Positions 36,339 to 38,912 of a DNA stretch of 64,000 nt are shown piece after piece. The DNA is from Ornithinibacillus caprae (GTDB lineage: Bacteria > Bacillota > Bacilli > Bacillales > Amphibacillaceae). The stretch covers positions 186,001-250,000 of the forward strand of contig NZ_WOCA01000004.1 in NCBI RefSeq assembly GCF_009728145.1, given 5' to 3'. Positions within the stretch are counted from its first letter, which is position 1. Every line of letters begins with the position of its first letter. The notes below the pieces were generated by a model. That model had not been told where the DNA came from and searched no databases. It saw only the letters and a list, made by a program, of their open reading frames with translations. Made by a program: the position numbers and the translations under genes.

Positions 36339-36989
36339 TTGGAGTTTATTGAGCCACTGTTAAAAATACTACTAATTAACTTAGTTTTAAGTGGAGATAA
36401 TGCGGTTGTGATTGCAATGGCAAGCCGAAACCTTCCGGATAGATTAAAAAAGAAAGCCATTGTATGGGGAACCTTAGGGGCGGTTGCATTTAGAATTATA
36501 TTTACGGTATTGGTGATCTATCTCTTAAAATTACCGTTTATTCATTTAATTGGTGGGCTACTTCTTTTAATCGTTGCGTATAAGTTGTTAGTTGATAATG
36601 AAGAGGAAGCGAACATTAAAGTTGGAAATACCCTTCAGGATGCAGTGATCATCATCATATTTGCTGATGTCCTTATGAGTTTAGATAATGTCCTTGCTAT
36701 TGTTGCTGTATCTAGTAATAATTTTCTTCTGATCTTAATTGTTGGTATTGTACTGACAATCCCAATTATCCTCTTTGCAAGCCAGCTTATTATAAAAATA
36801 ATGGACAAGTATTCCTTCATTGTCTATTTAGGGGCAGGTCTGCTTACATGGACAGCAGGTGAAATGATTCTAAAGGAGCAATTCGTTCAACAATATATCT
36901 CTTCCGTTCCGTTTTTAGAATCTTTGTTTTTAATTGGGATGGTCATATTCATTATGATAATGGGTGGCTATAATCGAGCACGTAATTAA
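36339..36989 (+). CDS. TerC/YjbE family integral membrane protein
   Basis: A 216-residue membrane protein with seven hydrophobic segments and the two TerC acidic motifs LSGDNAVVIAMASR (about 19-32) and DVLMSLDNVLAI (about 110-121), which may bind Mn or another metal in the membrane. Family members in Bacillus (YjbE, YkoY, YceF) are implicated in manganese handling during protein secretion. TTG 36339 is preferred, as GGAAAGGAG lies 9 nt upstream. I see no yybP-ykoY riboswitch motif in the 290-bp leader region. Confidence 0.85.
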   Translation: MEFIEPLLKILLINLVLSGDNAVVIAMASRNLPDRLKKKAIVWGTLGAVAFRIIFTVLVIYLLKLPFIHLIGGLLLLIVAYKLLVDNEEEANIKVGNTLQDAVIIIIFADVLMSLDNVLAIVAVSSNNFLLILIVGIVLTIPIILFASQLIIKIMDKYSFIVYLGAGLLTWTAGEMILKEQFVQQYISSVPFLESLFLIGMVIFIMIMGGYNRARN

Positions 36990-37708
36990 TGTCTAATGCT
37001 AGGAATATCATATGTTTTTTCATTTTTTAAGGAAACATGTAAGTCCTGGTTTCGGGTAATGGTTGCAAAGAACACATCATCTTTATTGTGTATACCTAAT
37101 GTCGAAAGCTGTTGCTCTAACCATTTTTCATTTAAATTAAATTTTTCTAAGATCGTTTGGTAAACCGTTCCCTCGACAATGATAGGAAATGTAAGGCTGG
37201 ACGGTTTATTTGGTATATTCATATCTTCAATTGTAACAGGATTCTTTCGTGGTTTTTTCAAGACACTTAAGGATCCATTTGATTCTATGATAGCTATTTC
37301 TACTTCATCCATATCAAAGACACTTTTTTCACGTAGCATCTGAAGAATATTATCAATGGAGTACCGGATATTCTTAATGTTTTTGTCTAGTAATTTTCCG
37401 TTATGTATAACCACAGTTGGTTCAAAGGTAACCAATTTGCCTACTTTGCGATTAAATATCTTCCATTTGCTAACTACTCTCTGAAAAACTCCTAATGAAA
37501 TGATGGCTACAGCCGTTGGTAAATGCTGTATGTTGGGATCTGCTATGTCTGCTCCAACTACTGCACCAAGCGTGAGAATGATTAAAAAGTCAAAAATAGG
37601 TAATTCCCCGATTGCACGTTTTCCCATAAATAATGTAACAAATAATAAAAGCGGTATAATAGTAGCTATTCTTCCGATAGTAGTACCTATTTCTTTAAGT
37701 ATTTCCAT
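36986..37708 (-). CDS. DUF421 (YetF-like) membrane protein 1
   Basis: A 240-residue DUF421 protein. Three N-terminal membrane segments carry MGKRAIGELPIFDFLIILTLGAVVGADIAD, then a cytosolic tandem YetF domain with PTVVIHNGKLL, ESNGSLSVLKKP and the dipeptide-rich end. YetF-type proteins are spore or membrane-associated with unsettled function. It meets the TerC gene tail to tail with a 4-bp overlap of stop codons. ATG 37708 is chosen over a weaker TTG at 37729. Confidence 0.82.
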   Translation of the reverse strand: MEILKEIGTTIGRIATIIPLLLFVTLFMGKRAIGELPIFDFLIILTLGAVVGADIADPNIQHLPTAVAIISLGVFQRVVSKWKIFNRKVGKLVTFEPTVVIHNGKLLDKNIKNIRYSIDNILQMLREKSVFDMDEVEIAIIESNGSLSVLKKPRKNPVTIEDMNIPNKPSSLTFPIIVEGTVYQTILEKFNLNEKWLEQQLSTLGIHNKDDVFFATITRNQDLHVSLKNEKTYDIPSIRH

Positions 37709-37803
37709 TATACTAGTCCCTACTTCCAAAATATTAATTATCTTGTTTTTATATTTATTATCTTAAAGAGAAGTAGAACTATACATATTATTCAAGTCGA
37801 TAC

Positions 37804-37850
37804 AGCAAAAAAAAATGCTGCCGATCGTCTTGCGATGGGCTAGCTTTTTA
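37804..37850 (-). terminator. Terminator of the FtsZ-like gene
   Basis: GCTAGCC-ATCG and CGAT-GGCAGC pair with small bulges; on the minus strand a run of nine T follows. It overlaps the end of the gene. Confidence 0.7.
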
Positions 37851-38696
37851 ATAGTTTATATTTTTCCTTCCGTTTTCTGTGAATAGCTGCCATTTCTTAA
37901 ATAATTCCTTATACTTTGGGACTTTTATATTGTCACCTTGGGTATTCTCTATCGGATCTTCAATTCCATTTACAAGTAATGTAATGGTAAATCGTTGTCC
38001 AGGCTTATCAATAAAGTAGGATCCAACTTTAAATAGGTCTGCTTTAGAAAATAAGTCGTTTAGACGTAAATTGATTTGTCGAAAAGCCTCCATATCGACA
38101 TCTCTGGTATACCCTATATCAATGATTAGTTGTTCTCCATCTGTAAAATCCTCCGGTAGATACGGAGTAGAAATTAAATACTTTAATGGTTCATCGAAGG
38201 ACTTGCCTTCTACGGTATGTAGAAATAAAGGTCCTTTTTTTCGTTTAATAAACGTTTCAATATCTCGGTAATCGATATTTATTTCACCAGTTTTCTCCAC
38301 CATGTCTCGAAGTGTATGAATGGTACGCTCTTCTATCGCATTAAAGGTAAGGTTAGCCTCTCGAATACTTGTTTTTGAATCAATTGTTTCCATTAGACCA
38401 TCACTATCAAAGAAAATAATAGCATCACAAATATCCTTCATAATAAAGTATTGTTTTGTTGCTGTTTGAAATCTTTTCTTTCCTTCAAATCGAAATGGAA
38501 AGCGGAAGATGCCAATTAATAGTGACTTTTTTTCTCGCAATGCTTTTAGCTTACGAGTAAGTTCTTCTGTTTCACTAGTATTTCCGCCAATGAAACGATA
38601 AAAGCATAGATCCTCTCTCTCAAGCTCTGCAATAATAGATTGTTTCTTGTCCGAGAAGTCTGAATCAATTTTAAAAAGACCAAAAGTTCTATTCAT
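37848..38696 (-). CDS. Degenerate FtsZ/tubulin-superfamily protein
   Basis: A 282-residue protein whose blocks follow the FtsZ order: LLIGIFRFPFRFEGKKR (about 59-75; FtsZ has TKPFxFEGRKR), a segment like FtsZ's NDRLLEIVDKNT (SDGLMETIDSKT, 98-109), the T7 synergy loop GEINIDYRDIETFI (137-150, keeping N140, D142, D145), and the C-terminal ISTPYL and TITLLVNGI strands. The first about 100 residues of FtsZ (nucleotide loops T1-T3) are missing, and the GGGTGTG signature is reduced to GGNTSE (37-42). GTP binding is thus improbable. It stands alone, with GGGAGAGG upstream of ATG. Confidence 0.78.
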   Translation of the reverse strand: MNRTFGLFKIDSDFSDKKQSIIAELEREDLCFYRFIGGNTSETEELTRKLKALREKKSLLIGIFRFPFRFEGKKRFQTATKQYFIMKDICDAIIFFDSDGLMETIDSKTSIREANLTFNAIEERTIHTLRDMVEKTGEINIDYRDIETFIKRKKGPLFLHTVEGKSFDEPLKYLISTPYLPEDFTDGEQLIIDIGYTRDVDMEAFRQINLRLNDLFSKADLFKVGSYFIDKPGQRFTITLLVNGIEDPIENTQGDNIKVPKYKELFKKWQLFTENGRKNINY

Positions 38697-38912
38697 AGTG
38701 CCTCTCCCAACTCTGCTTTTTCATCATTATATCTAATAAATCGTATAAAACTTGTCAGTTTATGTTGAGAAAATCAACTAGTTTTGTTGAAGAAAGGAAA
38801 ATAGCCTACTTGATGTCATTTATACTATTTTTATATATTCATGGACAAACACCGCCCCTCTTCAACTTCTTTTTCATAGATTAGCATTATCTAGTAGAAA
38901 GGAGGAGAAGAG

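Follow-up and report, generated by a model that had tools for sequence, protein, structure and literature searches.

A shortened FtsZ homologue that keeps the T7 loop, encoded behind a predicted Spo0A-type promoter in Ornithinibacillus caprae

The window analysed here, a 64,000-nucleotide stretch of the Ornithinibacillus caprae genome, carries on its minus strand a gene for a 282-residue protein, which we name FZL. A preliminary description had placed the protein in the FtsZ superfamily, with the T7 loop present and the GTP-binding half missing. The gene, its downstream neighbour, the motifs of the protein and the promoter elements are as follows.

36986-37729, same strand as FZL: YetF-like gene (DUF421), directly downstream of FZL
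37848..38696, minus strand: coding sequence of the half-FtsZ protein FZL (open reading frame with ATG start, 282 aa; assigned by FtsZ homology and fold)
38262..38294, minus strand: T7 loop, residues 135-145, KTGEINIDYRD; N140, D142 and D145 align with FtsZ N208, D210 and D213
38472..38498, minus strand: T5 loop and start of H5, residues 67-75, PFRFEGKKR; E71 and R75 align with FtsZ E139 and R143
38568..38588, minus strand: broken T4 signature GGNTSET (GGGTGTG in FtsZ), residues 37-43, from the alignment
38701..38708, minus strand: probable ribosome-binding site, GGGAGAGG on the coding strand, read from the sequence
38726..38731, minus strand: -10 box TATAAT, from the promoter comparison
38751..38759, minus strand: proximal Spo0A-like box, plus-strand CTTGTCAGT, with TGACA exactly 21 bp before the -10 box
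38763..38769, minus strand: second (middle) Spo0A-like box, plus-strand TGTTGAG, 10 bp from the proximal box
38782..38791, minus strand: distal Spo0A-like box, plus-strand TTTTGTTGAA (one mismatch to TTTTGTCGAA), from the locus comparison

FZL is a true homologue of FtsZ. It matches the FtsZ family TIGR00065 over residues 51-253 (E 6.7e-18), its 65.1 bits lying below the curated cut-off of 295.2 and thus below the score of an FtsZ equivalog, and it matches Pfam Tubulin through the last third of the domain alone (profile positions 131-189 of 190, E 1.3e-4; 22.7 bits, below the cut-off of 33). When FZL was compared with the PDB by phmmer (E ≤ 1), 49 distinct sequences were returned, every one of them named FtsZ (best 3.2e-14). 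In an alignment of 20 FZL members (A1), for which we picked the start codons ourselves, an ATG stands near the same position in 20 of 20 rows; these members match Pfam Tubulin in 20 of 20 cases (best 1.8e-5) and FtsZ_C in 1 of 20 (0.0062) at E ≤ 0.01. The host's own FtsZ is an ordinary one of 384 aa encoded at another locus (G000:C3), and aligns with FZL at 29% over 168 residues.

The AlphaFold model of FZL, built from 20 rows, reached a pLDDT of 70.8 and a pTM of 0.69; five models span pLDDT 48.6-70.8, so that the quality is middling, and residues 1-26, 178-187 and 252-282 are poorly modelled. The secondary-structure elements, with names assigned by us, follow each other in the FtsZ order from S4 to S10, with the H7 helix joining the nucleotide part and the C-terminal domain, and the predicted fold would thus be that of the FtsZ/tubulin superfamily. 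A Foldseek search of this model against the PDB listed 50 matches, all with FtsZ titles (best 1.5e-16). The homology asserted at the outset is therefore borne out: a significant profile match exists, FtsZ comes first in the sequence and fold searches alike, and the predicted FtsZ fold includes the C-terminal domain.

The alignment with FtsZ defines what has been lost. FZL starts at about the H3/S4 position of FtsZ, so the segment S1-H3 with the nucleotide loops T1-T3 is absent and T4 survives as the remnant GGNTSET, just as had been read from the letters; within that remnant G37, G38 and N39 are invariant in the 20 rows of A1. The elements S4, H4, S5, T5, H5, S6, H6, H7, T7, H8 and the C-terminal domain are retained. 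The preliminary description had let the FtsZ blocks begin at strand 6; their order was right, but the homology starts earlier, and since S4, H4, S5 and T5 are present, the loss covers only about the first half of the nucleotide domain. FEGKKR (residues 70-75) and NIDYRD (140-145) lie where that description put them. FZL therefore resembles FtsZ (TIGR00065, PF00091 plus PF12327) in the S4-S10 order, the T5 motif PFxFEG, the T7 motif GxxNxDxxD and, in the model, the C-terminal domain. It differs in lacking S1-H3, T1-T3 and an intact T4, in scoring below the curated cut-offs, in having no C-terminal DIPxFLR peptide, in its H10 helix and in having a promoter of its own.

The T7 residues N140, D142 and D145 are invariant in 35 of 35 intact copies, so that the T7 synergy loop is present throughout, and R75, the equivalent of R143, is arginine in 34 of the 35 and lysine in the other one. 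When 35 FtsZ and 35 FZL sequences were aligned together, 21 positions held one residue in at least 95% of them, and these include (numbered as in the host's own FtsZ, whose numbering coincides with that of SaFtsZ for the T7 and R143 motifs) P135, F138, E139, G140, R143, G205, N208, D210 and D213. In SaFtsZ, the residues D46, Q48, R143, N208, D210 and D213 are described as key for association or hydrolysis (extract of PMC8936486); FZL keeps R143 and the three T7 residues, while D46 and Q48 belong to the missing part. The suggestion that FZL is a protein with the T7 face alone thus stands in part: T7 is kept and the early nucleotide loops are lost, which fits a capping or modulation of FtsZ as far as the residues tell, but T5 and R75, which belong to the opposite face, are kept too. 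Because T5 and the H6-H7 loop, both elements of the nucleotide-side face, are also present, a one-faced FZL is a simplification.

FZL is an old family under purifying selection. Among 159 genomes of the host family, 18 have a match at E < 1e-70; 17 of these are intact, among them 11 of 11 genomes of the host genus. The many family matches near 1e-14 were taken for ordinary FtsZ without each being read. When 397 genomes sampled from the order were searched with the profile (E ≤ 1e-30), 19 had FZL, as did 3 of 398 sampled from the class. Nine loci come from named carriers, among them Ornithinibacillus, Aquibacillus, Terrihalobacillus, Piscibacillus and Evansella. Pooled, there are 35 intact (open) copies in eight families; two further named records (L010 and L011) entered A1 and the promoter work as extra copies beyond the 35. 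The dN/dS ratios were 0.024, 0.055, 0.071 and 0.092 for the four of nine pairs in which they could be computed, the other five being saturated at synonymous sites and two pairs sharing a genome. FZL has evolved about 3.3 times faster than the FtsZ of the same hosts.

These data bear directly on whether FZL might simply be a decaying ftsZ duplicate without function. One copy is indeed broken (L029, G156:C23:53275-54082), with one TGA and two TAA inside the match and two open pieces, in a genome whose SpoIIE match is still intact, and the distribution is patchy. Against this stand the 35 open copies in eight families, the low dN/dS, the invariant T7 residues and one conserved promoter, and we consider such decay extremely improbable.

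The FZL tree agrees partly with the FtsZ tree of the 35 hosts (14 of 32 splits in common), and the Mantel correlation between the two is 0.50, a value reached in 0 of 999 permutations. In the midpoint-rooted FZL tree, f66, f15 and part of f60 fall within the f1 clade, pointing to some transfer or to old losses. In this tree one member of the host genus (G099) has an FZL that clusters with the copy from a different family (G778) and away from its congeners, which is not the case for their FtsZ.

All 18 of the 18 FZL hosts outside the host family have SpoIIE above the cut-off, as do 155 of 159 genomes within it, most of which have no FZL. The near-universal SpoIIE makes a correlation of FZL with sporulation within the family uninformative, and it also means that the patchily distributed FZL is dispensable for sporulation as such: FZL counts among the accessory genes of sporulation and does not belong to its core.

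The surroundings of FZL are little conserved. Across 30 loci there is no broadly conserved neighbour, and the largest cluster, with 8 members, is the YetF-like (DUF421) gene, which adjoins FZL in the window and at L069 and lies a few genes off at five related loci (L070, L071, L073, L074 and L075); we took its recurrence for chance and kinship and rejected it as a conserved partner. A hairpin lies between FZL and this gene (z -2.1; 9 of 200 shuffles do equally well) and is at best a possible terminator.

A mobile origin of FZL was likewise rejected, in view of the viral contigs, where 7 stretches fit a pattern and 0 encode a relative, and of the plasmids, where 21 records match and the 10 listed are at 20-24% identity, 7 of these being annotated as FtsZ. 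Among viral models, 5 matched the fold at E ≤ 0.001, led by phage FtsZ/tubulin. Some FtsZ-like sequences were encountered on the way. A stretch of a Priestia megaterium plasmid (NZ_CP045273.1:644668-645279), with no listed gene, matches residues 59-253 at 24%. A 319-aa open frame (L030, G010:C12:252235-252783) in a genome without an FZL match has GGGTGTG and both FtsZ domains and seemingly no C-terminal tail, that genome having a second match; three genomes (G035, G077 and G152) have two matches each. In one FZL host, the FtsZ match (L151, G137:C22:181236-182384) contains one TAG, which could be a sequence error or reflect a match running past the start or end of the gene.

Upstream of FZL, the pattern [TC]GACA-N21-(-10 box) is found at 30 of 30 loci (29 distinct, L067 being the same record as L009), and the -10 boxes are TATAAT at 25, TATTAT at 3, TATACT at 1 and TAGAAT at 1. 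The arrangement known from spoIIG, in which 21-22 bp separate TGACA at -35 from the -10 box, is thus present at all 30. The strict form TGACA-N21-TATAAT occurs before 25 of 30 FZL genes versus 0 of 288 other mechanically called open reading frames of the same loci, and the version with a looser -10 box before 29 of 30 versus 0 of 288.

This promoter region holds three Spo0A-like boxes of unequal quality. When the best match to TTTGTCRAA was scored over the 30 loci, the proximal box averaged 6.6 of 9 (5.1 in shuffled blocks), the distal box 7.5 of 9 (5.7) and the middle box 5.6 of 9, which is barely above its shuffle (5.0) and makes the middle box a weak one. On the other strand, 10 bp from the TGTC, stand TGTT (12 loci), TGTC (12), CGTC (3), AGTG (2) or GGTC (1), so that the second box reads TGT(C/T) at 24 of 30 loci and departs from it at 6, while the distal box reads strictly TTTTGT(A/T/C)GAA at 17 of 30 and departs from it at 13. 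The perfect 0A core TGTCGAA does not occur at the FZL loci that were listed, which carry near-consensus boxes. The core is often degenerate, and spoIIAA and spoIIE likewise lack a perfect one, as given in the available part of PMC3485338.

Since the pattern had been derived from the FZL loci themselves, spoIIGA, spoIIE and genome-wide scans serve as independent tests. In B. subtilis, the gap measures 21-22 bp at both spoIIG and spoIIE, and sirA is a direct Spo0A target. Among the FZL genomes, TGACA-N21-TATACT lies within 500 bp upstream of spoIIGA in 12 of 12 cases (SpoIIGA was identified by Pfam in the host's own genome, 7.5e-82, and by BLASTP elsewhere), and TTGACA-N21-TTTA(A/C)T precedes spoIIE in 15 of 16, the exception being L124. 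A scan of the own genome with RACAN(5-6)TGACAN(20-22)TATAAT returned 3 matches (1 in the reversed control), namely FZL, the gene for SirA and a sulphur transporter. The SirA assignment rests on Pfam (5.2e-27), with no NCBIfam family, and a DsbD/CcdA-type gene follows. The match before the sulphur transporter (PF04143; L134, G000:C40:120838-120878) is spoIIG-like and may be due to chance. In 16 other FZL genomes, a related looser pattern gave 14 matches in 9 genomes (reversed control 3), of which 6 were FZL, 3 spoIIGA, 3 sirA and 2 others; this pattern misses 10 of the 16 FZL promoters, for example those with TATTAT. Over the 17 genomes, 7 of the 10 non-FZL matches therefore lie before sirA or spoIIGA. 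Three forms of the pattern were used genome-wide, and one of them gave 3 FZL promoters and nothing else.

The degeneracy of the boxes leaves some room for FZL to act in vegetative division or stress, with its promoter under another response regulator such as PhoP or WalR, which have repeats of about one helical turn. We consider this improbable, for the same gap is found at spoIIGA and spoIIE in the FZL genomes, the genome-wide matches single out sirA and spoIIGA, and the boxes resemble the 0A core as given in PMC3485338 (extract). Spo0A~P directly stimulates spoIIA, spoIIE and spoIIG, according to the portion of PMC8032392 at hand. Taken together, FZL is very probably controlled by Spo0A: Spo0A~P on the boxes at and upstream of -35 would activate a spoIIG-type promoter read by sigma-A, and FZL would be produced as a pseudo-FtsZ at the onset of sporulation. 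The preliminary description had overlooked this sporulation-type promoter, which provides a setting for its idea that FZL acts on FtsZ.

What such a protein might do is suggested by its residues. An FtsZ fold without S1-H3 should neither hold GTP nor serve as a normal filament subunit, and with the T7 loop and the C-terminal domain kept it could in principle present a catalytic T7 loop to another subunit and dock on the GTP-bearing face of FtsZ. Docking would block that face, so that a free FtsZ-GTP would be unable to join a filament and a filament end exposing its nucleotide would be capped. With N, D and D of T7 intact, FZL may also, with less assurance, trigger hydrolysis of the GTP held by FtsZ. 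The likely outcome would be to weaken the Z ring at mid-cell, or to restrict the formation of new ones, as division shifts to the pole. We judge a Spo0A-induced half-FtsZ that docks its T7 face on the GTP face of FtsZ, and so ends or sequesters filaments at sporulation onset, to have an even chance of being correct.

A different partner deserves weighing here, since the H10 helix of FZL is very conserved but with a non-FtsZ sequence. H10 is part of the docking face in FtsZ. In FZL (residues 202-216 of A1) 8 of its 15 positions are at least 90% conserved, with the consensus MEAFRQINLRLHDLF, unlike FtsZ, the alignment of FtsZ with FZL being uncertain near this helix; H10 and S8 both rank high in conservation within FZL and both differ from FtsZ. 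H10 is therefore a possible specific partner surface. In this reading FZL is likewise a Spo0A-induced pseudo-FtsZ, but it would bind the membrane or a different division protein of sporulation (SpoIIE, an adaptor and FZL itself are examples) rather than the nucleotide face of FtsZ, and T7 would be kept for the fold. T5, retained while the other nucleotide loops are gone, and FZL's own C-terminal helix, poorly modelled and variable, agree with such a partner. On the other hand, the T7 residues N, D and D are unchanged in 35 copies despite the faster evolution of FZL, and in SaFtsZ the changes D210N and D213N suppress assembly while D210N could still be crystallised (PMC8936486, in extract), which indicates that a T7 aspartate is unnecessary for folding there. 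We regard a partner other than FtsZ as rather unlikely.

If FtsZ is the partner, a known parallel in the proposed logic is MciZ (PF13072), a sporulation protein that blocks one assembly face of FtsZ (parts of PMC6126333 and PMC8936486). Unlike FZL, which is FtsZ-derived, seemingly controlled by Spo0A and predicted to act on the opposite face, MciZ is a small peptide under sigma-E that sits on the T7-side face. It has about 40 residues. No match to PF13072 was found by Pfam in the window protein or the 20 members, and at E ≤ 0.01 the family was seen, weakly, in 4 of 159 host-family genomes, none of them an FZL host, and was unseen in 155. Because the two sources differ on the end concerned, we name faces and not plus or minus ends: in the extract of PMC8936486, MciZ binds the bottom face and the T7-bearing bottom face is tentatively the growing end, monomers adding through their GTP-bearing top face, whereas the review PMC6126333, as excerpted, calls the end capped by MciZ the minus end. 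The fullest form of the proposal would make FZL a mirror image of MciZ, made under Spo0A~P, inserting T7 into the GTP pocket of FtsZ, acting as GTPase activator in trans and chain terminator, dissolving the mid-cell ring and sending division to the pole; this we offer tentatively, as a doubtful extension.

FZL shares its promoter type with SirA (PF10747) in the own genome and three others, while SirA acts on DnaA and replication and is a protein unrelated to FZL. FtsZl-1 and FtsZl-2 (Tubulin_2, PF13809) are also divergent members of the FtsZ superfamily, and FtsZl1 is described as being without some assembly elements, among them T6-H7 (PMC2875224, partial text), which FZL retains. When the 20 A1 rows were scanned at E ≤ 0.01, none of them matched PF13809. 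By description, FZL is also like ARC3 of chloroplasts, a regulator of FtsZ that itself derives from FtsZ and whose GTPase part is degenerate; ARC3 is a plant protein with other domains. Within open-licence PMC literature available in extract, including PMC2875224 and PMC9871819, we found no description of a truncated paralogue of FtsZ, either from Bacillaceae or under Spo0A control.

FZL also shows that selection can maintain an FtsZ whose first part has undergone a net loss of about 70 residues. The move of the Z ring from mid-cell to pole at sporulation is a long-standing question, for which SpoIIE, raised FtsZ levels and RefZ are named as helpers in B. subtilis (PMC6657595, in part). An FtsZ-derived protein that is apparently switched on by Spo0A and bears the catalytic docking loop would give a direct and easily tested handle on this move, and FZL would offer a natural dominant-negative design for FtsZ.
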